Positions 1,961-50,187 of a stretch of 52,674 bases of DNA are shown here, in pieces (positions within the stretch are counted from its first letter, which is position 1; each line of letters starts with the position of its first letter). Below the pieces are notes generated by a model. The model did not search any database and was not told where the DNA came from. It saw only the letters and a program-made list of their open reading frames with translations. A program made the position numbers and the translations under genes. Source of the DNA: an uncultured Oscillospiraceae bacterium (GTDB lineage Bacteria > Bacillota > Clostridia > Oscillospirales > Oscillospiraceae); NCBI GenBank assembly GCA_947599875.1, contig CANQFV010000017.1, positions 1 through 52,674 of the forward strand, written 5' to 3'.

Positions 1961-2330
1961 CTGGCGAAAAAGGTCATTGGGGTTCTCTAAAGAGAACCCC
2001 AATGACCTTTTTCTGCCAAGGGGGACGGAGGCTGGCTTGGAAGGCCTAAAGGCCTTCCAATGCCAAGGGGAAACGTGCGAAAGACCGGGCGTGAATTTAA
2101 GCGGAATTCACGCCCGGTCTTTCTGCTGCCGCGCTGCGCGACCAGTCTGCGGACTGGTCACTTGCGCGGCGAGAGGGATTTTTTGCGAGGCAAAGCCCCG
2201 CAAAAAATATTTGGATTGGGGAGCGGGTCGGGGGGTTGTCCGTTGTACGGAGGCTTTCACCCGGCGTTACAGAGGGACGGTTCTTTTGTCACTCGGAGCA
2301 AAGCGGAGAATGGGACTAAAGAACCGTCCC
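1961..2330 (+). repeat. Modular palindromic element, copy 1 (+ orientation)
   Basis: Starts with CTGGCG two bases after the ttcA stop. Hairpin A (1967-2012) has 22-bp perfect arms with an A-run before and a T-run after, so it also reads as a terminator. A second, smaller hairpin A follows (arms TTGGAAGGCCT, about 2038-2061). Hairpin B (about 2080-2124) has 19-bp perfect arms around GAATT...AATTC. Hairpin C has arms GACCAGTC/GACTGGTC and loop TGCG, inside a GCCGCGC/GCGCGGC clamp. Hairpin E (2178-2208) is TTTTTTGCG...CGCAAAAAA. A less structured stretch leads to a GGGACGGTT/AACCGTCCC hairpin (2274-2330). No reading frame in it resembles a protein. Confidence 0.85.
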
Positions 2331-2358
2331 CGTGTAACACCGGCTTCCGGGGGCGCTT

Positions 2359-2515
2359 GACGCTGCCCTTTCCCCGTTTATTATACCGCCCTCAATCATC
2401 GCGGCACGGGCCGCCGTGGGCGGCGGCCCCTACGGCATATTTTAAAGTTTTCTATCTTAACGCAACCGCTCTGTCATCCAACCCGCCCGGGCCGATGAGG
2501 TCATCGGCCCCTACA
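2359..2515 (+). repeat. 157-bp dispersed intergenic repeat (second copy at 40267-40421)
   Basis: This stretch, starting GACGCTGCCCTTTCCCCG and ending ATCGGCCCCTACA, recurs in the same orientation at 40267-40421 with only scattered substitutions. It contains two GC-rich hairpins: GGGCCGCC-gtg-GGCGGC with an extended stem near 2407-2430, and GGGCCGATGA-gg-TCATCGGCCC near 2489-2510. In both places it follows a GGGACGGTT hairpin and precedes a reverse-oriented modular element. It has no coding signal; it looks like a non-autonomous intergenic repeat. Confidence 0.8.
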
Positions 2516-2569
2516 AGGGAGTCTTGCAGACACCGGACACCTCCCTTCCCTCGTCCCCTCATTTTAAAT

Positions 2570-2791
2570 ATTTTTTCCAAGGACATGTGCCTTGGAAAAA
2601 ATCCCTCTTGCCGCGCAAGTGACCAGTCCGCAGACTGGTCGCACAGCGCGGCAGCAGGGGATATGCCCATGAATTCCGCAGAATTCATGGGCATATCCCC
2701 GCACGTCCCCCCTTGGCAGGAAAAGGCTGGATGCTTTCTCGCAGAGAAAGCATCCAGCCTTTTTCGCCAGCCCTGCGGCCTTTCAAGCCAG
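2570..2791 (-). repeat. Modular palindromic element, copy 2 (- orientation), at the pepC stop
   Basis: Same module order as copy 1 on the minus strand. Hairpin E (2570-2602) has stem CCAAGG/CCTTGG instead of GCGAGGC/GCCCCGC. Hairpin C is again GACCAGTC-tgcg-GACTGGTC. Hairpin B (about 2658-2701) has 19-bp perfect arms unrelated to copy 1 apart from GAATT. Hairpin A (about 2720-2765) has arms that read AAAAAGGCTGGATGCTTTCT on the minus strand, with T-runs on both sides, and should terminate pepC. The unit CTGGCTTGAAAGGCC supplies the TGA stop of pepC. Confidence 0.85.
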
Positions 2792-4123
2792 CTCCGCCAG
2801 CGATCCCATCGGATCCCAGGGCGCCAGCTCAATGACATCCGTCTCCAGCGCCGCCAGCTGCGCGGGGGTGAGGTACTTTTTATTCACCACCACCTGGTAC
2901 ATGTACTGGTCGAACCAGGCGTCGGACATGACGTAATAGCCCTTCTTCCCCGGCTCGTCGCCCCAGCTGTTCTCCACCCTCCAGCGGGTGGGCCTGCCGT
3001 CGTCCGTGAGGTTCACGCCCTGGAAGACCATCGCGTGGGTCATCATGCTCTGGCAGTAGTCCAGCCTCTGGGCCTTGGTCATGTTCAGGTCGATCCCCAG
3101 GGCCGCGGCGTAGTCGTAATTGTCCGGATCCAGCGTCCCCGCCTCCCTGTCGGAGTAGGGCCCCACGTCGCACCCAAACCACACCGGTTCGCCGTCGCGC
3201 ATCTGGGCGATGGCCGCGTCCTTCAGCTCCTCGATGGGCAGATTCAGGTAGCACACTGGGCTGCCCTCCTTCACGTTGCCCAGCATCTTCACCGTGAACC
3301 GGTGATAGAAGGGCTTATCCGCCGTGGGGGCGTTGATGAGGCTTATGTACTGGCTCAGATCCATATCCACATACTTTTTGAAAAACGCCTGGGGCGTCAG
3401 GCCGCAGTCCCGGATGAAGCCGCCGTTCTTGTCCGTGGCCTCAAAGTCCACCGTCTTGGGCGGCTCGCCCAGGCAGATGACCAGGATCCGGTAAATCTCC
3501 CCCAGCATCCGCTCCTTCTCCGCCTCCAGCTCAGCCCGGCCGGCGCCCTGGGCGGCCAGCTCCCGCAGACGCACCGCGTCGGTGCGCAGAAGCTCCGTCA
3601 TCACCCGGCACATCTCCCGGGTGGCGGAGGATACCGCCGTCTCCGGCATGGCCTCCTTGGGCACCACGCCGTATTTGTTCACCAGGTTCGCCATCATGTC
3701 CCACTGACCGCCGTCCCCGATGGGGTCACGGAGCAAAAAGTCCAGCAGGCGGCTGCCCACGCTCTCCGACAGCGTGTCCAGGATGTTCTCTAAGAACCAG
3801 TTGGACTTTTCCAGCTTATCCCAAAAGAGCATGTAGTTCTGGGAAAGCTCGAAATTGGCCAGACTGCACTTTTTCATCACGCGCACGCGCATCACATTCA
3901 TAGCCGCGAAGAGCCAGCATCTGCCGCTGGACTTCTGGTTTGTGACGGCACCCTGCTCCAGGCTCAGGGAGAAGGTATGCACGTTCCGGCGCATGGCCTC
4001 CTGATTGAGGCAGCTCTTGTTCAAACCGTTTACCGTCACCGCGTCCCGGACGGCCCTGTTGGCCCGGTCCGCGTGGAAATCGCCGCTGTACGAGGCAAGC
4101 AGCTCAGGGGTGATCTTGCTCAT
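2783..4123 (-). CDS. pepC: Aminopeptidase C (bleomycin-hydrolase family, C1B)
   Basis: Cytoplasmic thiol aminopeptidase that trims N-terminal residues from imported or recycled peptides; family members form hexameric barrels. The 446-aa length is typical. The papain-type triad is visible: Gln63 and Cys69 in NQKSSGRCW, His363 in THAMVFQG and Asn385 in VENSWG. ATG at 4123 has AAGGAGG eight bases upstream; an in-frame extension to 4168 would start before the promoter -10 and is rejected. The gene is monocistronic with its own promoter and dyad. Its last codons (CTG GCT TGA) lie in a repeat-element unit, so the natural C-terminus may have been altered by repeat insertion. Confidence 0.96.
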   Translation of the reverse strand: MSKITPELLASYSGDFHADRANRAVRDAVTVNGLNKSCLNQEAMRRNVHTFSLSLEQGAVTNQKSSGRCWLFAAMNVMRVRVMKKCSLANFELSQNYMLFWDKLEKSNWFLENILDTLSESVGSRLLDFLLRDPIGDGGQWDMMANLVNKYGVVPKEAMPETAVSSATREMCRVMTELLRTDAVRLRELAAQGAGRAELEAEKERMLGEIYRILVICLGEPPKTVDFEATDKNGGFIRDCGLTPQAFFKKYVDMDLSQYISLINAPTADKPFYHRFTVKMLGNVKEGSPVCYLNLPIEELKDAAIAQMRDGEPVWFGCDVGPYSDREAGTLDPDNYDYAAALGIDLNMTKAQRLDYCQSMMTHAMVFQGVNLTDDGRPTRWRVENSWGDEPGKKGYYVMSDAWFDQYMYQVVVNKKYLTPAQLAALETDVIELAPWDPMGSLAELA

Positions 4124-4158
4124 GGAAAAACCTCCTTGGTCATTTCTCTGTTGAGTAC

Positions 4159-4187
4159 AATATAGCACAGGTTTCTCCCTGTGTAAA
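4159..4187 (-). promoter_or_regulatory. pepC promoter with an operator-like dyad in the spacer
   Basis: On the minus strand TTTACA (4182-4187) and TATATT (4159-4164) are 17 bases apart. The spacer and -35 edge hold an inverted repeat CACAGG-N6-CCTGTG (4166-4183), a likely repressor site that would block RNA polymerase. A related ACAGG-N7-CCTGT dyad is found at 14941-14957 upstream of the second sugar-binding protein gene. Confidence 0.75.
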
Positions 4188-4214
4188 GTCCAAAAGTGCC
4201 GCCCCCTCCCACAG

Positions 4215-4250
4215 AAAAATCCCCCGACCCGGACGTGCCGGATCGGGGGA
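4215..4250 (-). terminator. Rho-independent terminator of the MsmK-type ATPase gene
   Basis: Read on the minus strand, TCCCCCGATCCGG pairs with CCGGGTCGGGGGA around a 5-base loop (one mismatch), followed directly by TTTTT (4219-4215). It lies 18 bases after the msmK stop. Confidence 0.88.
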
Positions 4251-4267
4251 GCTTTCCGTTACGGATG

Positions 4268-5440
<1,173 letters not shown>

Positions 5441-5526
5441 AGTTAACCCTCCTGAATATATTCTTCAAAATAAATTTTTAAACGGTTCCCTCCGGGCCGC
5501 CTCAACGGCATACCCGGCGCTGAGTC

Positions 5527-7461
5527 TTATTTTTCTGTGACCCAAACGGTCATCTCCCCCGGCTCCCGGTTCCCCCAGAAGCAGTAGGGCACAAATTTCA
5601 GGGTGACGGGCACGGCGTCCGGGGCGCGGGTACTGTAGAGCCCCCCGCTCCACTGAAGGCGCAGCCCCTCGGCCTCCACCGTGACACAGTCACGCAGGCC
5701 GCCCCCGGGCACCTCCTTCAGCGCCTTTGAGGTATCTATCCGCAAAGCGGCGAGGCCCTCCCCATTGTCCGCCTCCTCCAGACAGTAGACCAGCGGCCCT
5801 TTTCTGACCGCCACCTTGCCGGAGTCGGCCGAGACCCGGGGATTGGCGTAAATGACTCTCGCCGTCATGCCGAACGTAAACTGTACCGCCGCGCCGTTTC
5901 CGTCAACGGAAATCACGGCGTAGCCCCGATCCATTGCCGGGGTGAACTCCCCGCCGGCGTTCTGGAATCTGGGATCCTCCGCGTAATCCGGGACGCGGAT
6001 CAAAAGCCTGCCCTTCACGGGCTTTTCACAGCGCAGGCGGATCTCTCCGCTTCCCTCCCAGGGGAGGGAGGAATTTATGGTGATCTCCGCCGGCACACCG
6101 GCAATCTCAACCCGGTATGTGCCGCTGATCAGGAGATTGACTCTCACGGAATCATCGCCCTGGAGCAGGACGTACTCCCCCAGGGACGCCAGGGTCCTGG
6201 CGATGTTGGGCGGGCAGCAGGCGCAGCCGAACCACTTCTGACGCACGGGCTTGACGTGCGCCCGGTCTGTGGCGGGCATACACGCGTCCGGGATGACCTC
6301 CAGGGGGTTGACGTAGAAGAAGCTCCTGCCGTCCATCGCGATACCGGCCAGGACTGTGTTGTAAATGGCCAGCTCCGCAGTGTCCATATACCTGGCCTCG
6401 CCTGTGACCCGGGCCATGCGCTTGCAGAACATAGCCAGGGCGATGGAGGCGCAGCTCTCCGCGTAGGCCGAATCATTGGGCAGATCGTAGTCGGTGGTGA
6501 ACCGCTCCATGACCCCGGAGCTTCCGATGCCGCCGGTTATGTACATCCGCTTCTCGGTGATATTCTCGTATAGCCTCTCACAGGCCGCCAAAAGCTCCCG
6601 ATCCTGGCAGCTCCCGGCCAGATCCGCCATCGCGGAGTAGAGGTACAGCGCCCGGACGGCGTGTCCCTCGGCGGTGGTCTGCTCCCGAACCGGCAGGTGC
6701 GCCTGGCCGTACTCCGGGACATAGGGGTTGGGGTCGTGCCACACGTCGATATAGCGGGGAAGAGAACTCTCACGGCTCAAATAATCCGTGGTGCCCCGGC
6801 GGTTCACAAAATCGTAGGCCATATCCCGGTACTTCTCCTGGCCCGTAACCTCGTAGAGCCTGAAAAGCGCCAGCTCGATCTCCTCATGCCCCGGAACGGC
6901 GTCGGCGTACTCCGGCGTGTGGAAGACCTGGCAGATCAGGTCTGCGAACCTGCGCATGGCGTTGAGGAACCGATCCTCCCCCGTCACCTGATACCAGGCG
7001 ACGGCCGCCTCGATGAAGTGCCCGGCCGTGTACAGCTCGTGCCCCTCCTTCAGGTTGCAGAACTGGTGTCCCGGGTGGAGGATGGTGAAATAGCTGTTCA
7101 AATACCCGTTGGGCTGTTGGGCCTGGAGGACGAGATCGATCATCTCCTCCGCCGTGTCCTTCAGCTTGGGGTCGGGCAGGGACGCCAGGGAGTAGGCCGC
7201 GGCCTCCAGCCACTTGGCCAGATCCGTGTCCTGGAAGACCCAGCCCTCAAAGCTCCCCTCCTCGAGCCCCGCGGCGATCCGCAGATTGCGGATACAGCGG
7301 CTGGGGGGCGCGCCGGGGATCCGATCCCACAGGGTGTTGTACTGGTAGGGCAGGATCTCGCTGGTGACGAGACGCACACAGCCGTTCCAGAAGGGGTCGT
7401 CGATATGGGTATCGGAAAGGGATAAGTATTTTAGGTTTTCGTCAAATTTATGCCGGGCCAT
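5527..7461 (-). CDS. GH127 beta-L-arabinofuranosidase (HypBA1-like)
   Basis: Cytoplasmic retaining glycosidase (formerly DUF1680), 644 aa, predicted to release L-arabinofuranose from beta-arabinosides such as hydroxyproline-linked arabinan of plant extensins. The unusual zinc/cysteine centre of the family is intact: Glu335 and Cys337 in YAESC, and Cys415-Cys416 in FGCACCPPN, corresponding to Glu338, Cys340, Cys417 and Cys418 of characterised HypBA1. An alpha/alpha-barrel N-terminal part is followed by beta-sandwich domains (about 430-644). No signal peptide, so the substrate must be imported. GGGAGGG precedes the ATG at 7461. It is divergent from the ArsR-type regulator gene, which probably controls it; a clear -35/-10 pair for it is not visible (weak candidate TAAAAT near 7510). 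Confidence 0.93.
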   Translation of the reverse strand: MARHKFDENLKYLSLSDTHIDDPFWNGCVRLVTSEILPYQYNTLWDRIPGAPPSRCIRNLRIAAGLEEGSFEGWVFQDTDLAKWLEAAAYSLASLPDPKLKDTAEEMIDLVLQAQQPNGYLNSYFTILHPGHQFCNLKEGHELYTAGHFIEAAVAWYQVTGEDRFLNAMRRFADLICQVFHTPEYADAVPGHEEIELALFRLYEVTGQEKYRDMAYDFVNRRGTTDYLSRESSLPRYIDVWHDPNPYVPEYGQAHLPVREQTTAEGHAVRALYLYSAMADLAGSCQDRELLAACERLYENITEKRMYITGGIGSSGVMERFTTDYDLPNDSAYAESCASIALAMFCKRMARVTGEARYMDTAELAIYNTVLAGIAMDGRSFFYVNPLEVIPDACMPATDRAHVKPVRQKWFGCACCPPNIARTLASLGEYVLLQGDDSVRVNLLISGTYRVEIAGVPAEITINSSLPWEGSGEIRLRCEKPVKGRLLIRVPDYAEDPRFQNAGGEFTPAMDRGYAVISVDGNGAAVQFTFGMTARVIYANPRVSADSGKVAVRKGPLVYCLEEADNGEGLAALRIDTSKALKEVPGGGLRDCVTVEAEGLRLQWSGGLYSTRAPDAVPVTLKFVPYCFWGNREPGEMTVWVTEK

Positions 7462-7512
7462 TTACATTATCCCTCCCCTCTAAAAGGCTAAATTGGTAAA
7501 AAACGAAAGATT

Positions 7513-7600
7513 TTATCTAAATTGCACGAAAAAACGCCTGTGAAATTCGGAAAAATCTAAAATAAATCAGATTGACGAAAGGACAAACAAATTGTATAAT
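7513..7600 (+). promoter_or_regulatory. Divergent control region: regulator promoter and repeated ATCTAAA motif
   Basis: TTGACG (7572-7577) and TATAAT (7595-7600), 17 bases apart, form a strong promoter for the ArsR-type regulator. Upstream are two AT-rich copies of a similar motif, TTATCTAAATTG (7513-7524) and ATCTAAAATA (7555-7564). The exact 10-mer ATCTAAAATA recurs at 30493-30502 between the promoter and start of a lipoprotein GH43 gene, so it is a candidate operator. Confidence 0.6.
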
Positions 7601-7631
7601 AGTCCCAAAAGATCGATCAGGAGGTACGGCA

Positions 7632-8549
7632 ATGCTTCACGTCAAATCTCTGGACGAGGGCCTGGAGCTTTTCAAGGCCCTGGGTTCCGATATGAGGGTC
7701 CAGATCCTCAAGCTCCTGCTGGAAAACAAGCAGATGAGCATGAATCAGCTGGCTTCCAAGCTGGACATCACCAACGGGGCGCTCACCGGCCACATCCGGA
7801 AGCTGGAGAGCTGCGGGCTGGTGTCCATCTCCAACGACTCCGCCTCCCACGGCAACCAGAAGCTCTGCTCCGTCACCACCAACAAGATCCTCATCGACAT
7901 CATGCAGGAGCAGCGGGCCGACAACGTCCACGTCACCGAGATGAAGGTGGGCCACTTCTCCAGCCGCTCCATCCAGCCCACCTGCGGCATCGCCACGGCC
8001 TCGGGCCTCATCGGCTTTGCCGACGACCCCAGGTACTTTGACCACCCCGACAGGTTCAACGCGGAGATCCTCTGGTTCACCAAGGGCTTCGTGGAGTACA
8101 CGGTACCCAACTTTATCTCCCGGAATCAGAAGATCACCGCCGTCAGCGTCTCCTGCGAGATCTCCAGCGAGGCGCCGGGGACAAACAGCCGCTGGCCGTC
8201 GGACATCAGCTTCTCCATCAACGGGGTGCCCCTGGGCTATTGGACATCCCCCGGAGATTTCGGGGACGCCCGGGGCCTGCTGACACCGGAGTGGTGGCCG
8301 GAGAATTGGAACCAGTACGGACTTTTAAAGCAGCTGACCGTCAACGATCAGGGGACTTTCCTGGATGGGCTTCGCCTCTCGGACGTCACCGTGAAGGAGC
8401 TGAACCTGGCGCCGGGCCAGCCCACCACCTTCCGCATGAGCGTCCTGGACGGGGCGGAGAACGTGGGGGGACTCACCCTCTTCGGCAAGAGCTTCGGCAA
8501 CTACGGCCAGGATATCCGCTTCGCCTTCTCCTACGCGCCGATCCAATAA
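7632..8549 (+). CDS. ArsR-type transcriptional regulator with C-terminal beta-rich sensor-like domain
   Basis: DNA-binding regulator, 305 aa. Residues about 8-90 are an ArsR-type winged helix (MRVQILKLLLENKQMSMNQL, then the recognition region DITNGALTGHIRKLESCGLV). None of the usual ArsR metal-binding cysteine patterns is present. The remaining ~200 residues are rich in Trp, Asn, Gly and beta-prone segments (WPSDISFSING, GYWTSPGDFGDARGLLTPEWW), resembling a jelly-roll carbohydrate-binding or ligand domain; I do not recognise a named family. ATG at 7632 has AGGAGG at 7619-7624; an upstream in-frame TTG overlaps the -35 box and is rejected. Being divergent from GH127 and beside GH51/GH43, it is probably the local arabinoside-responsive regulator (inference). 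Confidence 0.85.
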   Translation: MLHVKSLDEGLELFKALGSDMRVQILKLLLENKQMSMNQLASKLDITNGALTGHIRKLESCGLVSISNDSASHGNQKLCSVTTNKILIDIMQEQRADNVHVTEMKVGHFSSRSIQPTCGIATASGLIGFADDPRYFDHPDRFNAEILWFTKGFVEYTVPNFISRNQKITAVSVSCEISSEAPGTNSRWPSDISFSINGVPLGYWTSPGDFGDARGLLTPEWWPENWNQYGLLKQLTVNDQGTFLDGLRLSDVTVKELNLAPGQPTTFRMSVLDGAENVGGLTLFGKSFGNYGQDIRFAFSYAPIQ

Positions 8550-8567
8550 GACTTTCGCTTTTTCTCT

Positions 8568-28041: not shown

Positions 28042-28296
28042 AGGCCTTCAAATGCCAAGGGGGACGTGCGAAAACACCCCATCGAATTGCGCGGAATTCG
28101 ATGGGGTGTTTTCTGCTGCCGCGCTGCGCGCACGGCCCAGAGGGCCGCACACTTGCGCGGCAAGAGGGATTTTTTGCGAGGCAAAGCCCCGCAAAAAAAA
28201 TATTTGGATTGCGAATACGGGGCGAGGCGTCTGACGTTGACCGGAAGCCGGCGTCCCTGTTGTCGCGACTTTAAGCGACGGCGAAAATAACCGTCC
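28024..28296 (+). repeat. Modular palindromic element, copy 3 (+), overlapping the GH43 stop
   Basis: Begins with CTGGC inside the last codons of GH43. Hairpin A has arms TTTGAAGGCCT/AGGCCTTCAAA. Hairpin B (about 28070-28114) has 19-bp perfect arms that differ from the other copies, with apex GAATT-gcgcgg-AATTC. Hairpin C differs here: GGCCC-aga-GGGCC in place of the ACCAGTC stem, within the same GCCGCGC/GCGCGGC clamp. Hairpin E is the GCGAGGC/GCCCCGC type (28169-28201). A right part up to 28296 ends with half of the GGGACGGTT hairpin. It meets copy 4 tail to tail. Confidence 0.85.
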
Positions 28297-28364
28297 CTCT
28301 GTACCGCCGGGTCAAGCCTCCAGGCAACGAAACAATCTCCCGACCCGCTCTCCCCAATTCCAAT

Positions 28365-28564
28365 ATTTTTTCCAAGGACATGTGCCTTGGAAAAAATCCC
28401 TCTTGCCGCGCAAGTGACCAGTCCGCAGACTGGTCGCGCAGCGCGGCAGCAGGGAAGGCCCCCTGGAATTCCGCAGAATTCCAGGGGGCCTTCCCGCACG
28501 CATCCCCTTGGCAGAAAAAGGGTTTTGGGTTCTCATCAGAGAACCCAAAACCCTTTTTCGCCAG
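28365..28564 (-). repeat. Modular palindromic element, copy 4 (-)
   Basis: Hairpin E (28365-28397) is the CCAAGG/CCTTGG type, hairpin C is GACCAGTC/GACTGGTC, hairpin B (about 28453-28496) has 19-bp perfect arms with apex GAATT-ccgcag-AATTC, and hairpin A (about 28514-28558) has T-runs on both sides and can terminate the gene that stops at 28570. CTGGCG lies five bases after that stop. The extension 28300-28364 closely matches that of copy 1 in the other orientation (AATTGGGGAG, GCGGGTCGGG, ACAGAGGGACGGTT). Confidence 0.85.
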
Positions 28565-39899: not shown

Positions 39900-40155
39900 C
39901 TCACCGTTGAATAAAGATTTACTCCAGCCGTGGCTCAGATACTCCGGAAGCACAAAAGGGAATTGGGGGTTCGACAAAAGAAAACGTGCGGAACAGGAAC
40001 TTCAATGTTTGCGGGAAGCCGGTGTGACACGGGAACGGTTCCTTTGTACCACCTCCTCAAGGAGGCGAAAGCAGAGCGTTACCATCCATTCAATCTGTAC
40101 GGGCCTCCGCCCACGGAGGCCCGGGTCGCGATAACTGACGCCTCCACTGCCTCAC
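39900..40155. other. Non-coding stretch with degenerate repeat pieces
   Basis: No convincing gene. From about 40010 it contains fragments of the repeat family: a half hairpin GGGAACGGTTCC (about 40036-40047), CACCTCCTC-aa-GGAGG (about 40052-40066) and GGGCCTCCG-ccca-CGGAGGCCC (about 40101-40122). They look like eroded copies of the GGGACGGTT hairpin type. Confidence 0.6.
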
Positions 40156-40213
40156 GGGGACGGTTTTTGTGGGACACCGCAGCGCAGCGGAGGTGGTTCA
40201 CAAGAACCGTCCC
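40156..40213. repeat. GGGACGGTT/AACCGTCCC long hairpin
   Basis: GGGGACGGTT and AACCGTCCC arms extend inward through TTGTG/CACAA, with a smaller internal hairpin (CACCGC...GCGGAGGTG). Similar long hairpins with different interiors are found at 2274-2330 and 44680-44737. They resemble REP-like elements, but no REP-associated (Y1) transposase is present in the window. Confidence 0.8.
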
Positions 40214-40266
40214 TGTGGGGCACGGGAAAGGGTTCGTCGTGCGTTTCCGGGAAGCCGGTGTTACAC

Positions 40267-40421: not shown

Positions 40422-40451
40422 GGCTTCCCGGCGACGCTCCCCTCATTCAAT

Positions 40452-40719
40452 ATTTTTTGCGGGGCTTTGCCTCGCAAAAAATCCCTCTTGCCGCGCAAGT
40501 GTCCAGTCCGCAGACTGGTCACGCAGCGCGGCAGCAGGAAAACGGCTCCTGAATTCCGCAGAATTCAGGAGCCGTTTCCCGCACGTTCCCCTTGGCATTG
40601 AAAGGCCGCAGGGGTTGCCGCCAGGGTGGGAGGGCGCGAAAAGCTCCCGCGCCAGAAGACTCCTGTGGCCTTTCAAGCCAGCTTACCCCTGCGGCCTTTC
40701 AAGCCAGTCATTTCGCCAG
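40452..40719 (-). repeat. Modular palindromic element, copy 5 (-), at the oligoendopeptidase stop
   Basis: Hairpin E (40452-40482) is the GCGAGGC/GCCCCGC type; hairpin C is mostly kept (CCAGTCCGCAGACTGG, with one GT-to-GA change beside it); hairpin B (about 40540-40580) has 18-bp arms with a single bulged A and apex GAATT-ccgcag-AATTC. The hairpin A region is expanded: CTGGCTTGAAAGGCC occurs in at least two tandem copies between 40665 and 40713, whose outer arms match GGCCTTTCAATGCC near 40600. CTGGCG lies directly after the TGA stop of the M3 peptidase gene. Confidence 0.82.
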
Positions 40720-42438
40720 TCATTTCACTCCCCCAAGGTCATACCCCTCCAGCCAGCGGGCGGCCTTCTCGCACACGCCCCGGAGGGTACTCTCGTCAAA
40801 GGGCGAGTCCAGTCCCGCGTTGGAGAGCAGCTGGGTGAACACCCGGCTGCCGCCCTGGCGGGTGTAGGCCATGTAATGCTCCCAGGCGTTCTTCTGATCC
40901 TCCTGCATCATCGCCCAGAACTCCAGGGACACGGTCTGGGCCAGGCAGTAGTCGATGTAGTAGAAGGGGCTTTCATAGATGTGGCTCTGGCGCTGCCAGC
41001 CCTCCCCCTCGGCGTAGAAGGGGATGTCCCCGTCCAGGGCAAGCCAGGGCTGATAGACGCCCAAAAGCCGCTTCCAGGTGTGGTGGCGCTCCCGGGGGGT
41101 CATCTCCGGATGCTCGTAGATCTCGTGCTGGAAGTGATCCACAAGGGTGCCGTAGGGGATAAAGGTGATGGCGTCGGCCAGGTGGGAGTACCGGAACTTC
41201 CTGGCGTCCTCCCCGAAGAAGTCCTCCGCCCAGGGCCAGGCCATAAACTCCATCGACATGGAGTGTACCTCGCAGGCCTCCATCCCGGGCCAGGCGTAGC
41301 TGGAGGGGATCCGGTCCCGGTTCATCCAGTAGGCGAAGGCGTGGCCGGCCTCGTGGGTGATGACGGTGACATCGCCGATGGTGCCGTTGAAGTTGGCGAA
41401 GATAAAGGGGACCTTGTACGCCCCGAGGCCGGTGCAGTAGCCGCCCCCCGCCTTGCCCTCGGTGCTGAGTACATCCATCAGCTCCCGGTCAAGCATGGTG
41501 TTGAAAAACTCCGCCGTCTCCGGGGAAAGCTCCGTGTAGAACTTCTTCCCGGCGGCCAGGATGTCCTCCGCCGTCCCACGGGGCCGGGGATTTCCGGAGC
41601 GGAAGGACAGGGCCTCGTCGGCGAAGCTCAGGGGATACGCCTTGCCCAGTCTCTCCGCCTGACGCCGGTAGATGGCGTCGGCCACGGGCACCAGGTACTT
41701 GCGCACGGCCTCCCGGAAGCGCTCCACGTCCTTCTTGTCGTAGCAGTTTCTCCCCATCCGGTCATAGCCCAGGGGGATATAGTTTTCGTACCCCAGATTC
41801 TTCCCCATCTGATCCCGGAGCTTCACCAGCTCGTCGTAGATCCGGTCCAGCTCCGGCTGATGCTCCTTGAACCACCGGCCCTGGGCCTTCCAGGCCGCGA
41901 GGCGCCGGGCGTCGTCCGGATCCGTCTTAAAGGGGGTCATCTGGGAGTGGGTGTACGTCTTGCCCTCAAACTCGATCTGCGCCGAGGCGAGGAGCTTGGA
42001 ATACTCCGTGGTCAGCTCATTCTCCCGCTGCATCAGAGGGATGTTCTTGGGGGAGAAGGTGCGCAGGGCGATCTCCGTGTCCGTGAACATAAGGCTGCCG
42101 TACTCCGCCTCAAACTCCGGCCGGAAGGGGCTCTCCAGCAGGGCCTTGTTCCACTCCTGCCCATACTGGGCAAGCTCCGGCCCGGCGGCGTCCCAGAAGC
42201 TCACCTCCCCGTCGTAGAAGGGATCCCGGGTGTCGATGTCGTGGCGGATGGACGCCAGCGTCGCCTGGGCGCCTATCCGGTCGTCCTCCTCCTCGGCGGA
42301 GAGGAAGATCTGCCGCGCCTCACGGTAGCTTGCGGCCTTTCGCAGATTTTGGATCTGCCGGGTGTACAGCGCTTTAAGCTCCTCCAAATCGGGGCGCTTA
42401 TAGGGCATATCCTTGAATTTTACGTTGTTGTCAGGCAT
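40720..42438 (-). CDS. M3 family oligoendopeptidase (PepF-like)
   Basis: Cytoplasmic zinc metallopeptidase of 572 aa that degrades short peptides. Zinc motif HEAGH at residues 362-366 and the third ligand Glu in the helix EACEVHSMSMEFM (about 385-397), as in thimet-type peptidases. Length fits oligoendopeptidase F. ATG at 42438 follows GAGGAGGCC; own near-consensus promoter upstream. Its stop TGA adjoins repeat-element copy 5. Confidence 0.95.
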   Translation of the reverse strand: MPDNNVKFKDMPYKRPDLEELKALYTRQIQNLRKAASYREARQIFLSAEEEDDRIGAQATLASIRHDIDTRDPFYDGEVSFWDAAGPELAQYGQEWNKALLESPFRPEFEAEYGSLMFTDTEIALRTFSPKNIPLMQRENELTTEYSKLLASAQIEFEGKTYTHSQMTPFKTDPDDARRLAAWKAQGRWFKEHQPELDRIYDELVKLRDQMGKNLGYENYIPLGYDRMGRNCYDKKDVERFREAVRKYLVPVADAIYRRQAERLGKAYPLSFADEALSFRSGNPRPRGTAEDILAAGKKFYTELSPETAEFFNTMLDRELMDVLSTEGKAGGGYCTGLGAYKVPFIFANFNGTIGDVTVITHEAGHAFAYWMNRDRIPSSYAWPGMEACEVHSMSMEFMAWPWAEDFFGEDARKFRYSHLADAITFIPYGTLVDHFQHEIYEHPEMTPRERHHTWKRLLGVYQPWLALDGDIPFYAEGEGWQRQSHIYESPFYYIDYCLAQTVSLEFWAMMQEDQKNAWEHYMAYTRQGGSRVFTQLLSNAGLDSPFDESTLRGVCEKAARWLEGYDLGGVK

Positions 42439-44477: not shown

Positions 44478-44552
44478 TCCCGTCGAAAAAGCCCTGCGGA
44501 CTTTTCCGACAAAGGGAAGCATTAGGTTTTTTGACAAACTGCTGAAGTGATC
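44469..44552 (+). mobile_element. Minimal MITE-like insertion at the permease stop codon
   Basis: CTGAAGTGATC occurs at 44469-44479 (containing the stop codon) and again at 44542-44552. Between them are GTCGAAAAAGCC at the left (44482-44493) and, at the right, a sequence whose complement is GTCAAAAAACC, resembling the ends of element copy 7. The inner part holds only a small hairpin (AAAAGccctgcggaCTTTT). It looks like an internal deletion derivative of the element at 49952-50158. Part of the 3' repeat (CTGAAG) resembles sequence also found after copy 7, so the true target duplication may be shorter than 11 bp. Confidence 0.5.
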
Positions 44553-44570
44553 GTACCTCCTTTTGATGAT

Positions 44571-44630
44571 GGACGCGTGCGCGTCCCCCGGGGTAATTTT
44601 ATGGACAAAGGCCCGAAGGCCTTTGTCCAT
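44571..44630. repeat. Two perfect palindromes, one with a UUCG-type loop
   Basis: GGACGCG-tg-CGCGTCC (44571-44586) and ATGGACAAAGGCC-cgaa-GGCCTTTGTCCAT (44601-44630, 13-bp perfect arms). On the minus strand the second loop reads TTCG closed by C-G, an exceptionally stable UNCG tetraloop in RNA. Confidence 0.75.
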
Positions 44631-44679
44631 AAGGGGGGCGGACGGTTCGTCAAGCGTCCCCTTAAAGCCGGTATGACAC

Positions 44680-44737
44680 GGGGACGGTTCCTTAGTCACA
44701 CCAGTGTGCGCACTGGTGGTACAAAGAAACCGTCCCC
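44680..44737. repeat. GGGACGGTT/AACCGTCCC long hairpin with inner TGCG-loop hairpin
   Basis: Outer arms GGGGACGGTT and AACCGTCCCC; inside, ACCAGTG-tgcg-CACTGGT is a perfect 7-bp hairpin. Same type as 2274-2330 and 40156-40213. It lies next to element copy 6. Confidence 0.8.
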
Positions 44738-44791
44738 GCTGTCCCACCTCCTCAAAAGACGGACCCCTCCGTCCCGCTCCCCCATCCAAAC

Positions 44792-45039
44792 ATTTTTTCC
44801 AAGGACATGTGCCTTGGAAAAAATCCCTCTTGCCGCGCAAGTGACCAGTCCGCAGACTGGTCGCACAGCGCGGCAGCAGGAAAGGGCCACTCGAATTGCG
44901 CACAATTCGAGCGGCCCTTTCCACACGCATCCCCTTGGCATTGGAAGGCCGCAGCGTCCACTGCCAGGGTAAGAAATACGCTTAATACTACCCCCGCCGG
45001 ATAATCCCTGCGGCCTTCCAAGCCAGCCCTTTTCGCCAG
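44792..45039 (-). repeat. Modular palindromic element, copy 6 (-), after the FTR-like gene
   Basis: Hairpin E (44792-44824) is the CCAAGG/CCTTGG type; hairpin C is GACCAGTC/GACTGGTC; hairpin B (about 44880-44923) has 19-bp arms with one mismatch and apex GAATT-gcgcac-AATTC. Hairpin A has arms TTGGAAGGCCGCAG/CTGCGGCCTTCCAA interrupted by about 60 extra bases (44955-45010). AGCTGGCG adjoins the TAA stop, exactly as in copy 1. Confidence 0.82.
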
Positions 45040-45041
45040 CT

Positions 45042-45242
45042 TTATTTCTCCTTGTAATACAGCTTACAGTGGCAGTAGCCCTCAAAATCCGGGTCGGCGC
45101 ACTGGGCCTTGAATTCCTGGCAGACGCACTTGTACTCGGGCTTGCGCTCGGTGCGGCAGGGGCAGTAGCCGCCGGTGCGCTTCAGCCCCTCCCGGACGGT
45201 GCGGACCACCTCGGGGTCATCGTTCACGCGGATCTTCGCCAT
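45042..45242 (-). CDS. Ferredoxin:thioredoxin reductase catalytic-chain-like protein
   Basis: Fe-S protein of 66 aa with the three Cys-x-Cys motifs of the FTR catalytic chain: CPC (27-29), CVC (39-41) and CHC (57-59), within the usual YCPCR...CQEF...GYCHCKLY frame. In plant FTR these hold a [4Fe-4S] cluster and the redox disulfide that reduces thioredoxin. The protein is shorter than plant FTR and spacing between motifs differs, as in other bacterial versions. It lies 14 bases after the thioredoxin gene, its probable partner. Element copy 6 starts at its stop. Confidence 0.88.
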   Translation of the reverse strand: MAKIRVNDDPEVVRTVREGLKRTGGYCPCRTERKPEYKCVCQEFKAQCADPDFEGYCHCKLYYKEK

Positions 45243-45256
45243 TTTTCACGCCTCCT

Positions 45257-45571
45257 TCAGTTGTAGAGCATCACCGCGATCTGGCGGTTCAGCTCCTCCC
45301 GGTCCATGCTCCCCTCGATGCGGTGTACCTCCCGGCCGTTGCGGAAGAACAGCAGCGTGGGCATGGCGTCGATGCCGAAGCGCTCGGCGATGTCCCACTC
45401 GTGGGAGATGTTGATCTCGATAAACCGGATCCCGGCCATATCGGCTGCGGCCTCCTTGTAGACAGGCTCCAGCATGACGCAGGCCCCGCAAAAATCCCCG
45501 TAGCAGTCCACCACGGCGTATTCGGTGTCAATAAGACGGTCAAAGGTCTGGGCAGTGGCCTCGGTGATCAT
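45257..45571 (-). CDS. Thioredoxin-like protein with CGAC active site
   Basis: Cytoplasmic thiol:disulfide protein of 104 aa; redox motif Cys28-Gly-Ala-Cys31 (FCGACVMLEP) instead of CGPC, and cis-proline in DAMPTLLFF. No signal peptide. Its ATG overlaps the stop of the trigger-factor-like gene by four bases. CGAC thioredoxins beside an FTR-like chain suggest that ferredoxin rather than NADPH may be the electron source (inference). Confidence 0.92.
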   Translation of the reverse strand: MITEATAQTFDRLIDTEYAVVDCYGDFCGACVMLEPVYKEAAADMAGIRFIEINISHEWDIAERFGIDAMPTLLFFRNGREVHRIEGSMDREELNRQIAVMLYN

Positions 45572-46440
45572 TTCGTTCCCTCCAGTCTCTCCATCGCGAT
45601 ATTATACAGGATCTCCCAGGTCTTGGACTCCATAAAGCCGCTCTCCGCCTCGTCCCCGGTGCAGCCGTTCTCGGCGTAGAGCTTTTGCTCCTCCGGCCCG
45701 AAGGTCACGCCCTGCTGCTCGCAGAAGGCGCGGCTCATGGCCAGGGACAGGTACTGGGACCGCAGGCTCTCCTTGAACTGGGCCAGCACCTCCTCGTCCG
45801 TGAGGAAGTCCGTCCCGTCCTCGGGGATGTGGGGGTCGATGCCCTCCTGCTCGTACATCTTCAGCATCTCCTTGGCGGCCTTGTCCGTCCAGGCCTCCTG
45901 CTCCTCCTCGTCCACCTGGTAGTCGCTTTTCTCTACCAGCGCGTCGTGGAGGGCGGCGGACAGGTGCTTGGCGGACAGGGAGCGGTTTTGCTCCTGGGTC
46001 TTTTCCTTGATGTACGCCCGGTAGGCCGCCACGGTCTCCACCCCGTCGATCTTCTCCTCCCGCACGAGACGGTCGTCAATGGGGGCCGGGGTGCGCCGGA
46101 CGATCCGCTGTACCGTGAGGCTGACGGGGGAGCCGGCAAGCTCCGTTTTCACCGTGTCCCCGCATCCTGCCCCCAGTAGGGCCTTCTCCGCCTGCTCCGC
46201 CCCGGGGATGCTCCGTCCCGGGTAGACCAGGACGGTGCGATCCTCCAGCGCCCCCCGGGCGGCACAGAACACCGTGTCCCCCGTTTGGACGGCGTCCCCC
46301 TGGGTCTCCACGGCGTGCTGGACGGCCAGGGCCTTCACCAGACCGTCCACGGCGGCCTCGTCCACACGCCATTCCGGAATGTCCTCCGGCGTGGGGATGA
46401 GGGCCACATCATAAAGCTTTGTCACTTTCGTTTTCATCAT
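45568..46440 (-). CDS. Trigger-factor-like peptidyl-prolyl isomerase/chaperone lacking the ribosome-binding domain
   Basis: Protein of about 290 aa aligning in layout with the FKBP-type and C-terminal chaperone parts of trigger factor: GDTVFCAARG, then YPGRSIPGAEQAEKALLGAG (like the IPGFE motif), SPVSLTVQRIVRR, IDDRLVREEKIDGVETVAAY, and a helical C-terminal arm (about 170-285). The N-terminal ribosome-docking domain (GFRxGKxP motif) is absent, so it is a free chaperone rather than true Tig. ATG at 46440 or 46437 follows AAGGAGGCAG and overlaps the exporter stop. Its place between an ABC exporter and redox proteins suggests folding help for an exported or redox-sensitive substrate. Confidence 0.82.
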   Translation of the reverse strand: MMKTKVTKLYDVALIPTPEDIPEWRVDEAAVDGLVKALAVQHAVETQGDAVQTGDTVFCAARGALEDRTVLVYPGRSIPGAEQAEKALLGAGCGDTVKTELAGSPVSLTVQRIVRRTPAPIDDRLVREEKIDGVETVAAYRAYIKEKTQEQNRSLSAKHLSAALHDALVEKSDYQVDEEEQEAWTDKAAKEMLKMYEQEGIDPHIPEDGTDFLTDEEVLAQFKESLRSQYLSLAMSRAFCEQQGVTFGPEEQKLYAENGCTGDEAESGFMESKTWEILYNIAMERLEGTK

Positions 46441-48146
46441 ACTGCCTCCTTGTCGCCCCGGCGGGCGAAGGTTTGATAATAGGCGTTTGTGCGCAGAAGC
46501 TCCTCCGGCGTACCCATGCCCACGATATGGCCGTTGTCCATAACGATCACGTCGTCGGCCTCCCGGGCGGCCCGGAAGCTGTGGGCGATCATAACGGTGG
46601 TGCGCCCCTCCATCAGCCTGTCCAGGGCCGTGGAGACATCCGCCTCGCACTTGGCGTCCAGACTGCTTGTGGCCTCGTCCAGCAGGAGATACCGGGGCCG
46701 GCGCAGCACGGCGCGGGCGATGGCCAGGCACTGTCTCTGTCCGCCGGAGAAGCTGCTGCCCCCCGGCCCCACCTGGGCGTCGAATCCGCCGGGCGTCTCC
46801 TGGATAAAGTCGTAGGCGTTGGCCAGCTTCACGGCGTCCGTCAGCTCCTCCTGGGAGACCTCCCGTCCGATTCCGTAGGTCAGGTTCTCCCGGACGGTGC
46901 CGGACATCAGGGGCGTGTCCTGGGCCACGATAGCCAGGGCGTGCCGCCAGGATGTCAGGTTGAAGGCCCCGATCTCCCGGTCCCCGAAGGTGATCTGCCC
47001 CTCGTCCGGGTCGTACATCCGCTCGATCAGCTTCATCATGGTAGATTTGCCGGCGCCGTTGGTGCCCACGATGGCCGTGACGCGCCCGGCCCGCAGGCGG
47101 CAGGAGATGTTCTCCAGAACGGGCACGTCCTTGTAGGCGAAGGACACGTTGTCAAAGACGATGTCCTCCTCCCCCGTGACCTCGTCGCCCCCCTGAGGCT
47201 CGTCGGCCTGATCCAGCAGGCAGGAGATCTTCTTCAGCTCGCCGTTGGTGCCGATAATGGTGCCCACCGCCATAAACAGGTTGGACAGGTGCATGGCCAC
47301 CATCGAGGAGAAGCCATAGAAGATCACCAGCGTCCCCACGGTCAGCGTCCCCTGGGCCACCATCCGTCCCCCGGCCACGAAGGAGATGATCAGGGACAGG
47401 CAGCTCAGTGCCTGAAGCCCCACCACCATGTACGCCACGGTACTCCGGCTGTACAGGTCTGTCCAGTACTGCCTCCGGAAGATGCCGTGGGATTTTTGCT
47501 TCTCATACCGTTCCGTCCCCAGCGCCCGGATGAGCCGCAGGTTGTGGACATGCTCCGTCATATACCCCGTGGTCTTGGCGAAATTCCTGGCGCCCAGCAG
47601 GGCGGAGTGGTATGCCATCACCGAGTAGACAGCGCCCACGCCGATGGTGCAGGGGATGATCAGCAGCGACCAGGTCGCCAGCCCCTTGTGGAAGATAAAG
47701 AGCTGCCGAAAGGCCACCACAGTGGCGTAGACGGTGGTGATGCAGGAGATACCGGTGGTGATATAGGAACTGGCCGAGCCGGGGTCGGAGGTGACACGGC
47801 TCACCAGGTCGTTGGGGCTTTCCGTGTCGTAGTAGCTCAGGGGCAGGCGCATCAGCTTGTCCCAGACCTTCAAGCGCACCCCGGCGCCGATCTTCTGCTC
47901 CAGCAGGCCGGAGAAATACGTCTCCCCCACCGTGGCGGCCACGGTGAGGATCAGATTCACCGCGTAGCGCACCAGTCTCTGCGCGTCAATGGTACTTTGG
48001 CTGGCGTCGATGATGGAGGCGCTCAGCTCCACGCTCTGCAAGCCCAGCGTCACCTCCACCAGGGAGAAGATCAGGTAAGCCAGCATACTGATCCAGGGCA
48101 GCTTCACGCCCCTGAAGATATGGACATACCGTTTGATCGCTTTCAT
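46437..48146 (-). CDS. ABC exporter half-transporter 2 (TMD-NBD)
   Basis: Protein of 569 aa: six-helix membrane domain (about 15-310) then an ATPase domain with Walker A GTNGAGKST, signature FSGGQRQCLAIARAVL, Walker B YLLLDEATSSLD and switch His in IAHSFRAARE. ATG at 48146 overlaps the upstream half-transporter stop as ATGA, with GGAGGCGGCGG before it; an in-frame extension to 48197 is rejected. It forms a heterodimer with the next protein. This half has the canonical Glu after Walker B (DEAT). Confidence 0.94.
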   Translation of the reverse strand: MKAIKRYVHIFRGVKLPWISMLAYLIFSLVEVTLGLQSVELSASIIDASQSTIDAQRLVRYAVNLILTVAATVGETYFSGLLEQKIGAGVRLKVWDKLMRLPLSYYDTESPNDLVSRVTSDPGSASSYITTGISCITTVYATVVAFRQLFIFHKGLATWSLLIIPCTIGVGAVYSVMAYHSALLGARNFAKTTGYMTEHVHNLRLIRALGTERYEKQKSHGIFRRQYWTDLYSRSTVAYMVVGLQALSCLSLIISFVAGGRMVAQGTLTVGTLVIFYGFSSMVAMHLSNLFMAVGTIIGTNGELKKISCLLDQADEPQGGDEVTGEEDIVFDNVSFAYKDVPVLENISCRLRAGRVTAIVGTNGAGKSTMMKLIERMYDPDEGQITFGDREIGAFNLTSWRHALAIVAQDTPLMSGTVRENLTYGIGREVSQEELTDAVKLANAYDFIQETPGGFDAQVGPGGSSFSGGQRQCLAIARAVLRRPRYLLLDEATSSLDAKCEADVSTALDRLMEGRTTVMIAHSFRAAREADDVIVMDNGHIVGMGTPEELLRTNAYYQTFARRGDKEAV

Positions 48147-49891
48147 TCCGCCGCCTCCTTCTCCTGGGCCTCCACCATCTGGGCGAAGATGGGGCATCCG
48201 GCCATCAGGGTGTCATAGGAGCCCTCACCCACAAGGCAGCCGTTTTGCAGGACGACGATCTTATCCACGCGGCGGGTGAGGCGCAGATCGTGAGTCACCA
48301 TGAGGATGGTCTTCCCGGTAAAGGTGGTGAGGATCGCCTCCTGCACGCCGTTTGCCGTCTGGGCGTCCAGGGCGGAGGTCGGCTCGTCCAGCAGGAGGAT
48401 ATCCGCGTTGCGCAGAAATTCCCGGGCCAGCACAAGCCTCTGCACCTGTCCCCCGGACAGGGAGGTTCCGGACGCGGCGACCTGGGTCTCCAGCCCGTCC
48501 GGCTGTTTTTCAATGTAATCCGCGATGCCCGTAAGGCGCGCCGCCTCCAGGATCTCCTCGTCCGTCACATCCCGGTCAAGGCCGTAGGTCAGCGCCTCGC
48601 GCACCGTGCCGCTGAAGATCTCCGGCCGCTGCTGGACATAGGAGAAGCACCGCCTGTACTCCGCCAGGGGCAGTCTCCCGATCTCCACGCCGCCCATCGT
48701 GACGCTCCCGCTCTCCGGCCGGTAGAACCGCTCCAGCAGGTTCAGGGAAGTGGTCTTTCCGCTTCCGCACAGGCCCACCACGGCCACGGTCTTCCCCTCC
48801 GGCACCGTGAAGGACACGTCCCGCAGGGCCGTCTTGTCGCCGTAGGAGAAGGTGACGGAGTCGAAGGACACGTCCCGCCCGCTCTGGGGTATGGGCGCGT
48901 CCCCGGCGGCCTCCAGATCCTCCTCCGGGGCGTCGTACACCTTCGCCGCCCGGCACAGGGCCGCCTTCACCATCTTGACGGAGACCCACTCGTTCACAAG
49001 CTGTGACATGGTGTTCCCCAGCTCCTGGCTGAACAGGAAGAACGCCACCCACTGGGCCATTGTGATCAGCTTGCGTTGGATCAGCACCACCGCCAGGACG
49101 ATCAGCACGAACTGCTGGACAAAATCGATCATCTGGATGGTGGCGGAGTAGCCGGCGTTGATCCTCACCTCCCGCATATTGGCCTTCACCAGCTTGTCCA
49201 CGGTCTTCCGGCCGTTTAAAAGCTCCTCCCGCTCGTTGGTGAAGGTCTTGATCAGGGGCAGATTCCGCACACGCTCAGCCAAAAATCCGGTGAGGCCGCC
49301 GATCTCCTGATAGATCCCGGCCTCCGCCCGGTAGAAGAGCTTGCCCATCACCAGGGAGTAGACGTACTTGATGGGCACAAAGGCCGCGATCCCCACCACC
49401 AAAAGCCAGTGGTAGGAGCCGATGGTCTTCGTGGCCCGGAACACATAGTACAGCTCCGGGATAATGTTGATGAGCAGATAGGAGGTATGGTCCACGCCGT
49501 AGGACACGTCGTTTGTGATGGCGCTCATCAGCTCCGCCGGATCGTTGCTGTCGTAGAAGGACATATGTACCCGGAGCATCTTTCCCCACAGGTTGTCCCG
49601 GGCGCGCTTGATGGCCAGGCACGACGCCTGGGCCATAAACAGGTTCCACACCGCCATCACCAGGGCGAAAAGCACATAGTAGACCACCGTGTCCCGCAAG
49701 GCCCCGGAGGTCAGATCCCCGCTGAAGAGCGACGCCGTGGTGGTGGGGATTTTGACCAGCAGCTCGTTGTAATAGAGATTCACCCCGAAGGCTATAGCGA
49801 TCCACAGCCAGGGCAGCTGGGACCGTTTCAGGACCCTGAATACGCTTTTCCAGCGTACCTCCGGATCCCGCTGTCGTTTCGGTTTTTTCAT
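48143..49891 (-). CDS. ABC exporter half-transporter 1 (TMD-NBD)
   Basis: Protein of 582 aa: six-helix membrane domain (about 20-315) and an ATPase domain with Walker A GLCGSGKTTSL, signature LSGGQVQRLVLAREFL, Walker B ILLLDEPTSALD and switch His in VTHDLRLTRR. ATG at 49891 follows GAGGAGG. First gene of a five-gene operon (two exporter halves, chaperone, thioredoxin, FTR-like). Substrate unknown; such pairs export lipids, drugs or peptides. No small peptide gene is recognisable beside it. No clear promoter is seen; the MITE-like copy 7 lies just upstream, at its leader. Confidence 0.94.
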   Translation of the reverse strand: MKKPKRQRDPEVRWKSVFRVLKRSQLPWLWIAIAFGVNLYYNELLVKIPTTTASLFSGDLTSGALRDTVVYYVLFALVMAVWNLFMAQASCLAIKRARDNLWGKMLRVHMSFYDSNDPAELMSAITNDVSYGVDHTSYLLINIIPELYYVFRATKTIGSYHWLLVVGIAAFVPIKYVYSLVMGKLFYRAEAGIYQEIGGLTGFLAERVRNLPLIKTFTNEREELLNGRKTVDKLVKANMREVRINAGYSATIQMIDFVQQFVLIVLAVVLIQRKLITMAQWVAFFLFSQELGNTMSQLVNEWVSVKMVKAALCRAAKVYDAPEEDLEAAGDAPIPQSGRDVSFDSVTFSYGDKTALRDVSFTVPEGKTVAVVGLCGSGKTTSLNLLERFYRPESGSVTMGGVEIGRLPLAEYRRCFSYVQQRPEIFSGTVREALTYGLDRDVTDEEILEAARLTGIADYIEKQPDGLETQVAASGTSLSGGQVQRLVLAREFLRNADILLLDEPTSALDAQTANGVQEAILTTFTGKTILMVTHDLRLTRRVDKIVVLQNGCLVGEGSYDTLMAGCPIFAQMVEAQEKEAAE

Positions 49892-49921
49892 ATTTGCCTC
49901 CTCATTTCAATTCAATGGGAA

Positions 49922-50187
49922 AAGCGCCGCCCGATCCCTCAGACGACGCCGCAGCCTGTCGAAAAAGCCCTGCGGGCTTTTCCGGCAGAGGGGACGTGCG
50001 GAAAATTTTTCTGAATTTTGCGAAATTCAGAAAAAATTTTCCTGCCGTCGCCCTGCGCGCACGGCCCCGTGGGCCGCACGCTTGTGCGACATAAGGGATT
50101 TTTTCCGACGTACATGCCGCCGGAAAAAATATTGATGTGTGGTTTTTTTGATAAGCTGAAGCGCCGCCCGATCCCTCAGACGGCGCC
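49922..50187 (+). mobile_element. MITE-like element: modular palindrome copy 7 with terminal inverted repeats and flanking direct repeats
   Basis: Element 49952-50158 (207 bp). The left end CAGCCTGTCGAAAAAGCC and the complement of the right end, CAGCTTATCAAAAAAACC, match at 14 of 18 positions, all differences being transitions. Flanking direct repeats of 29 bp (49922-49950 and 50159-50187; start AAGCGCCGCCCGATCCCTC) differ at one base. Inside are hairpin A (AAAAGCCC...GGGCTTTT), hairpin B with 18-19 bp arms and apex GAATT-ttgcga-AATTC, hairpin C of the GGCCC/GGGCC type and hairpin E (50098-50130). The direct repeat itself contains a GCGCCG/CGGCGC hairpin that may have been the terminator of the lipoprotein gene at 50196. 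Confidence 0.75.

Follow-up and report, generated by a model that had tools for sequence, protein, structure and literature searches.

Why does a hairpin keep its two arms paired while the letters of those arms differ from copy to copy? The question is raised by a 52,674-nucleotide stretch of DNA from an uncultured Oscillospiraceae bacterium (the window; contig 17 of a genome of 2.73 Mb that comprises 89 contigs and has ratings of 100% for completeness and 0.03% for contamination), in which an original prediction, made by inspection of the letters, had described seven copies of a modular element composed of hairpins A, B, C, and E. A covariance model, R1, was built from 40 distinct copies, the seven of the window and 33 from elsewhere in the same genome. 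The seven copies lie where they had been placed (Table 1), on both strands in alternation, and all of them, themselves part of the R1 training alignment, are the best seven R1 matches in the window (E 3.3e-36 or better).

On the element strand, the order is a gene stop codon, at least one A hairpin (often an A-run, a stem, and a T-run), AAGGGGNACGTGC, hairpin B, TGCT, a clamp with hairpin C, AAGAGGGA, hairpin E, and TATT. Constant boxes of about 14–21 nt (approximately AAGGGGNACGTGC between A and B, TGCTGYCRCGC between B and C, and GYGRCAARAGGGATTTTT between C and E) separate hairpins in which the apex is fixed and the stem varies. B is preceded by the box ACGTGC and has the apex GAATTC-TGCG-GAATTC, C is enclosed by the clamp GCCGCGC/GCGCGGC, and E has the form T6..A6. 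The shared hairpin order that had been proposed stands, with the correction that copy 1 has two consecutive A hairpins; the proposed B apex, GAATT-N6-AATTC, is exact in six copies and misses copy 1, because its apex is N7. With up to one mismatch allowed, this pattern occurs nine times in the window, against 0.83 expected, and none of 100 shuffles reached nine; six of these matches are element copies, all exact, and three are one-mismatch matches elsewhere in the window. Several A hairpins fit, by eye, a terminator pattern (a stem followed by a T-run on the gene strand), whereas B and E of the window's genome do not.

The predicted covariation proved to be well above shuffles and slides. In the 40 copies, helix B is 98.4% paired, and 15 of its 20 pairs have changed on both sides; the covariation score of the whole structure was 0.327, compared with 0.095 ± 0.006 for shuffled alignments, and none of 500 shuffles and none of six slid versions reached 0.327. 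One of the five covariation measures, that of further pair types, was not above shuffles (221 of 500). Genus-wide, 43 of 47 pairs have changed on both sides in 86 distinct rows of an alignment that was fitted to the model and had 91 rows in all, 10 of them weak matches that lie opposite strong ones on the other strand. The loops had been described as mostly TGCG, a UNCG-type tetraloop; TGCG is indeed present in most copies, with CTGCGG in 100 of 139 loops of the window's genome, but the variants (TTCG/TACG, 5; TGTG, 3; TGAG, 3; TGCA, 2; flipped CGCA, 2) show no clear UNCG preference.

To see how the stems change, we compared two sister species of the genus, G005 and G020, in which 139 and 142 R1 matches, respectively, were found among 150 candidates scored in each, and whose listed orthologous blocks of at least 1 kb are about 92%–98% identical. 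Flank mapping yielded 20 sites with flanks 92.8%–99.0% identical, both flanks being mapped at 18 of the 20. Two sites were dropped from the count (L376:1501, where the element is absent in G020, and L386:14636, where a single flank could be mapped and G020 yielded no copy), and L378:109, mapped by one flank, was kept among the remaining 18. At these 18 orthologous sites, hairpin B was identical at four, had a one-base change at one, and was replaced en bloc at 13. Replaced stems differ by 6 to 21 edits in 42–46 letters; among the 26 stems found at replaced sites, 16 are perfect and 10 carry one or two mismatches, all of them G.T or A.C. The four unreplaced stems are letter-identical between the two species, and in-place rewriting was not seen at the unreplaced B sites. 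En bloc replacement at 13 of 18 sites, together with letter identity at four others, therefore indicates that stems are exchanged and not slowly compensated.

The other modules behave differently from one another. Clamp plus C is the same at three and different at 15 of the 18 sites, whereas E is shared at 13 of them and differs at only 5. B is identical with a different clamp or C at three sites (L378:109, L388:1501, and L387:14025), and at L384:5032 B differs with clamp and C the same. Thus B and C change singly, and E mostly stays with its site. Modules were also near-independent in 140 copies of the window's genome, where the number of shuffles at least as associated, out of 2,000, was 544 for B–C, 152 for C–E, and 28 for B–E. 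Thirteen further loci were compared in other species pairs or trios; 11 are ends of the same gene (loci 9 and 12, which have the gene in common on their opposite side, were not counted), and B differs in every comparison except that of the G005–G020 OLE site, which is already among the 18.

The same stem can stand at different sites in the two species. In 15 of 47 parsed G005 copies, every letter of the stem agrees with that of some copy among the 53 parsed in G020, and four of these 15 are at mapped orthologous sites (six further copies in these genomes were left unparsed). The AGAAAAATCCCTTG stem occurs in G020 at C43:17569 and C3:68860 and in G005 at C14:35792, and the G005 ortholog of C43:17569 holds another stem. 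Similarly, the stem of G005 L387:1501 is found in G020 at L399:9542, with another stem at the orthologous L400:5612. Of the GGAAAGCCCTCG[C/T] stem group, G005 has one member and G020 has four, including two C.A intermediates between the two perfect states. Hence these stems point to a stem pool partly common to both species and dealt over shared sites, although donors can be identified for only part of the stems.

This pool is diverse: 102 distinct B hairpins were counted in 139 copies of the window's genome, 42 in 47 G005 copies, and 50 in 53 G020 copies, and none of the 102 was found among the parsed G005 or G020 copies. Thirty-six pairs of distinct stems are one letter apart. Among the 78 pairs that are two letters apart, 44 differ at partner positions (about 1 in 43 is expected at random), by 26 transitions and 18 transversions, two of the latter with an imperfect stem; such pairs share stems and so are not independent. 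Mismatches in distinct stems, read on the element strand, are G.T in 49 cases, A.C in 25, and other in 19 (bulged stems misread by the script). The 49:25 count lies between the expectation for an RNA helix, in which A.C is rare, and that for pure DNA, in which both are equal.

The element is not confined to the window or to its genome. At least 150 places match R1 in that genome, all at E 6.6e-27 or better, a lower bound because the seventh window copy is not among the 150 places scored. In a search of 99 genomes, with at most 31 candidates scored in each, 43 matched: the window's own, 29 of the 33 further genomes in its genus (G003, G007, G014, and G016 gave no match), 9 of 27 from other genera of the family, and 4 of 38 from other families. 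Those relatives that have names come from metagenomes and carry the label uncultured Oscillospiraceae or Lachnospiraceae, often together with an isolate name in Lapin. Twelve genomes with weaker matches were searched further, giving 45 matches in G066 and 32 in G089. Twenty-six loci were inspected, the stretches of L086, L096, and L104 lying off the match; in most of the loci with the match in view, a stop codon is followed by a hairpin, the clamp, and E (apex like GACGTACAYGCCG), plus a further hairpin, but L094 lacks this order. Long hairpin arrays, in which the further hairpin is followed by TCTGCGAGGC or a close variant, were observed in G066 and G089, which belong to another family (L090, L092, L099, L101, L108, and L109).

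Most copies stand behind genes. For the 119 copies of the window's genome with 350 nt on both sides (genes called by a codon-usage script), the upstream gene is on the same strand in 89, on the opposite strand in 28, and absent in 2, and a called gene is overlapped in 3. The stop codon lies a median of 61 nt before the model start and within 250 nt in 87 of the 89 same-strand cases. Neighboring copies within 1.5 kb are convergent in 19 cases, divergent in one, and in tandem in one. In more than one species, the element sits at genes for chaperonin, ribosomal L1, and glutamate dehydrogenase (one ortholog each, by Pfam), at OLE RNA, and at PepC. OLE RNA (Rfam RF01071, 421 bits, L074 812–1483) directly precedes the element in G023, and the same site is occupied, by similarity, in G005 and G020. 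At a PP-loop ATPase locus, the downstream neighbor differs among the orthologs inspected, and at the PepC site, which is also seen in records of named relatives, an inversion between two similar terminators has turned the entire segment around.

Whole stems are replaced with pairing kept, B and C change independently, the same stems stand at different sites, and the copies lie at the 3′ ends of genes; this pattern shows that B and C hairpins are exchanged between sites. The original prediction had named a selected structure and a palindrome-regenerating mechanism as explanations; the underlying covariation is real, but a selected RNA cannot be read from paired change alone when stems are exchanged between sister species. 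On balance, we think it fairly likely that the copies are dispersed palindromic repeats resembling bacterial interspersed mosaic elements (BIMEs), and that B and C hairpins pass as cassettes from one copy to another, with ectopic gene conversion as the probable route. The boxes and the shared neighboring modules would provide the homology for conversion among the 140–150 or more dispersed copies, and cleavage of extruded DNA hairpins possibly starts the exchange. A hairpin would be transferred with both arms, and pairing would survive because the two arms move together. New stems may arise slowly, by base changes that reach both arms via fold-back template switching, through selection for the DNA hairpin, or both. 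In the cell, the element could provide double-sided termination and a hairpin barrier that insulates convergent genes.

Several observations weigh against cassette exchange by gene conversion. Boxes of this length are short for RecA recombination, and no exchange enzyme was found. The replaced stem at L348 has no exact copy elsewhere in 34 genomes of the genus, so no donor is seen for it; of three stems or stem groups tested for a sibling in the same genome, one had an exact sibling, one only siblings different by one letter, and one none. There is no sign of arm correction at work: the stem at L388:1501, perfect with a one-base bulge, is letter-identical in G005 and G020, which argues against fast correction. 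Between 68 and 90 (left) and between 37 and 90 (right) of the outermost 90 aligned letters beside the element are identical, so that some sites differ there as well. The B–E association noted above is not quite random, and the excess of G.T over A.C may point to an influence that acts on RNA or favors one strand. The control set, hairpins remote from elements, is too small: of at least 12 bp, three were usable, two identical and one changed with pairing lost, and of at least 9 bp, two were usable, both identical. Two hairpins less than 150 nt from elements (L381:2676 and L388:15919) also show changes in both arms relative to G020, so the effect possibly extends beyond the element. Finally, the relatives compared are draft assemblies.

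A related but rather improbable alternative is a dedicated exchange system in which a recombinase or polymerase would recognize the fixed apex and the boxes and trade entire palindromes among over 100 gene-end sites; almost all gene ends would then have a well-paired stem of their own, and the distinct stems would keep neighboring copies from recombining or pairing. It is also unlikely that the element is a structured RNA, a 3′ untranslated region or a small RNA, held under selection by ordinary compensatory substitution. Covariation far above shuffles and slides, the conserved apex and TGCG loop, the 49:25 ratio, and the orientation behind genes would all suit an RNA. Nevertheless, en bloc swapping does not fit stepwise compensation, since 13 of 18 stems were replaced whole at a divergence of a few percent and four did not change. 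Furthermore, 18 of the 44 paired differences are transversions, which weigh against stepwise compensation because they cannot pass through G.U. A.C mismatches, rarer than G.T, are common and not avoided, and two G020 copies are caught at the C.A state between perfect states. One pair of hairpin E is mismatched in 54 of 86 rows, being A.C on the element strand and G.U on the opposite strand in the rows inspected, and the core lies beyond a terminator-like hairpin.

We give a still lower probability to a mobile element, similar to a miniature inverted-repeat transposable element, that targets terminators and re-occupies sites by independent insertions of different copies. Its abundance (at least 150 copies), its occurrence behind the same chaperonin, ribosomal L1, glutamate dehydrogenase, OLE RNA, and PepC loci in several species, and an orthologous site with and without the element in which G020 has kept the A hairpin (L376:1501 versus L398) all agree with such an element. 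However, the hairpins swap singly, and E stays with its site at 13 of 18 sites, rarer E types included, which makes re-insertion less likely; the sequence beside E is kept at several sites. Target duplications were not seen by eye, and no partner transposase was found. A RAYT/IS200 gene was rejected as the mobilizer: the IS200-like gene of the window's genome is flanked by another palindromic repeat, GGGACGGTTCTTTTGTC, one copy of which lies inside the open reading frame of that gene, and a Y1 transposase was not found in drafts G005, G006, G011, G015, and G017, each with at least 31 scored copies.

Fold-back template switching acting alone, and rewriting stems in place, appears very doubtful. 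Template switching equalizes arms and flips spacers, according to the available part of PMC8604942, and both the two flipped loops among 139 (CGCA for TGCG) and the 44 of 78 two-letter-apart stem pairs that differ at partner positions speak for it. Against it, the four unreplaced stems are unchanged, one of them with its bulge, many replaced stems also change their apex family, and swapped stems exist elsewhere. Misjoining of repeat copies in draft genomes is highly improbable, for although some copies lie at contig ends and the relatives are metagenome assemblies, at 18 of 20 sites the two flanks agree on one location, the boxes that tie B to the left flank are shorter than usual assembly words, the window's genome, rated fully complete and almost free of contamination, shows the same diversity, and further pairs of species likewise have unlike B stems at gene ends that they share. 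Two other candidates were set aside. A box starting with GTGCG and lying behind terminators recalls group IIC introns, but there is no Rfam intron match and the core is too short for a remnant. As to a phage or plasmid origin, IMG/VR does not contain the exact E pattern, searched in its CCGACGTACAYGCCGYCGG form only, and phage and plasmid records gave no match to copy 3.

If cassette exchange is the right account, it bears on how covariation is read. A functional RNA is usually proved by paired change in an alignment; in this family, however, most of the strong covariation seems to result from whole DNA hairpins being exchanged between sites, so that it can mislead covariation-based RNA discovery. 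Two old questions, how palindromes keep pairing during diversification and whether repeats similar to repetitive extragenic palindromes (REPs) evolve by gene conversion, now become measurable in sister species and passaged isolates.

Table 1. Element cores and hairpins in the window
Feature	Position	Strand	R1 score (bits)	Remarks
Copy 1 core (box, B, C, E)	2065..2215	+	170.1	
Copy 2 core	2563..2714	-	171.4	behind PepC-like peptidase gene (2783-4168 -, Pfam PF03051)
Copy 3 core	28056..28206	+	149.8	
Copy 4 core	28358..28509	-	173.6	
Copy 5 core	40445..40594	-	173.1	behind peptidase M3 gene (40720-42438 -)
Copy 6 core	44785..44936	-	166.2	
Copy 7 core	49986..50137	+	127.7	B stem AT-rich, C of CACGGCCC type
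Hairpin A, copy 1	1966..2013	+		A-run, perfect 23-bp stem, T-run; directly after stop codon 1956-1958
Second hairpin A, copy 1	2037..2060	+		TTGGAAGGCCT..AGGCCTTCCAA; by eye
Hairpin A, copy 2	2721..2763	-		terminator-like, stem perfect, apex TTCTC..GAGAA
Hairpin A, copy 4	28514..28559	-		terminator-like
Hairpin B, copy 1	2079..2123	+		
Hairpin B, copy 2	2657..2700	-		20 bp, perfect; element-strand loop TGCG
Hairpin B, copy 3	28070..28113	+		
Hairpin B, copy 4	28452..28495	-		
Hairpin B, copy 5	40537..40580	-		
Hairpin B, copy 6	44879..44922	-		one mismatch
Hairpin B, copy 7	50000..50042	+		by eye
Clamp and inner hairpin C, copy 1	2128..2170	+		clamp GCCGCGC/GCGCGGC
Hairpin E, copy 1	2179..2207	+		T6-stem-A6

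In copies 5 and 6 (window 40590–40710 and 44940–45030), the short hairpin A is replaced by a long form with an interior of about 60–80 nt, which recurs at other loci of the genome. Copy 7 is flanked by a 28-nt near-identical direct repeat, AGCGCCGCCCGATCCCTCAGACGRCGCC, at 49923–49950 and 50160–50187, and its A side faces the start of an ABC-transporter gene (48143–49891, minus strand), not a gene end. The separate palindromic repeat GGGACGGTTCTTTTGTC (and its complement) adjoins some elements and flanks the IS200-like gene (window 2261–2343, 40143–40227, and 44679–44738; L031, about 1739–1800).

As expected, no known family with this build was found. Neither the repeat nor stem swapping at orthologous sites is described in the open-access literature checked, including the available parts of PMC3733652, PMC4666352, PMC8040213, PMC2267715, PMC2800124, PMC12306157, PMC3116915, and PMC8604942, most subscription papers being outside this scope, which makes this weak evidence of absence. 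With Rfam 15, there was no gathering-level match in the window, and none over the element in 12 distant loci (one FMN riboswitch was found elsewhere in them); at E up to 1, in four loci, the matches overlapping the element were far below gathering. To our knowledge, stem swapping has not been reported for bcr1, BOX, or other Gram-positive stem-loop repeats. Those families are likewise intergenic foldable repeats of Firmicutes, but the present element, compared by description and not by sequence, matches none of the descriptions in the available part of PMC2267715. The hairpin elements of sponge mitochondria are also dispersed, intergenic, and possibly mobile; in the portion of PMC2800124 consulted, however, their stems are conserved and their loops vary, the reverse of what is seen here. 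The REPIN-RAYT system, so far as the accessible text of PMC3116915 describes it, shares non-autonomous palindromic repeats with the present case, and the window's genome also has an IS200-like gene; here, in contrast, another REP stands on either side of the Y1 gene, and five element-rich drafts have no detected Y1 gene.

Whether REPs evolve by gene conversion was asked in the title of a 1988 review (Higgins et al., cited in PMC12306157, seen in part). The GTAG and CGTC superfamilies of REPs carry an unpaired GTAG or CGTC at the hairpin foot, as given in the part of PMC3733652 consulted. In our 40-row alignment, by eye, the feet of B and C are approximately ACGTGC/TGCTG, without either tag. 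The present repeat, with its many dispersed extragenic palindromes in mosaic arrays, resembles the REPs and BIMEs of enterobacteria and pseudomonads, which are short palindromes and mosaic composites present in more than 100 copies, intergenic and at 3′ ends, and often in inverted pairs. It differs from them in being larger, with a 150-nt core of several different hairpins, in having mostly distinct stems, and in exchanging single hairpins at orthologous sites.

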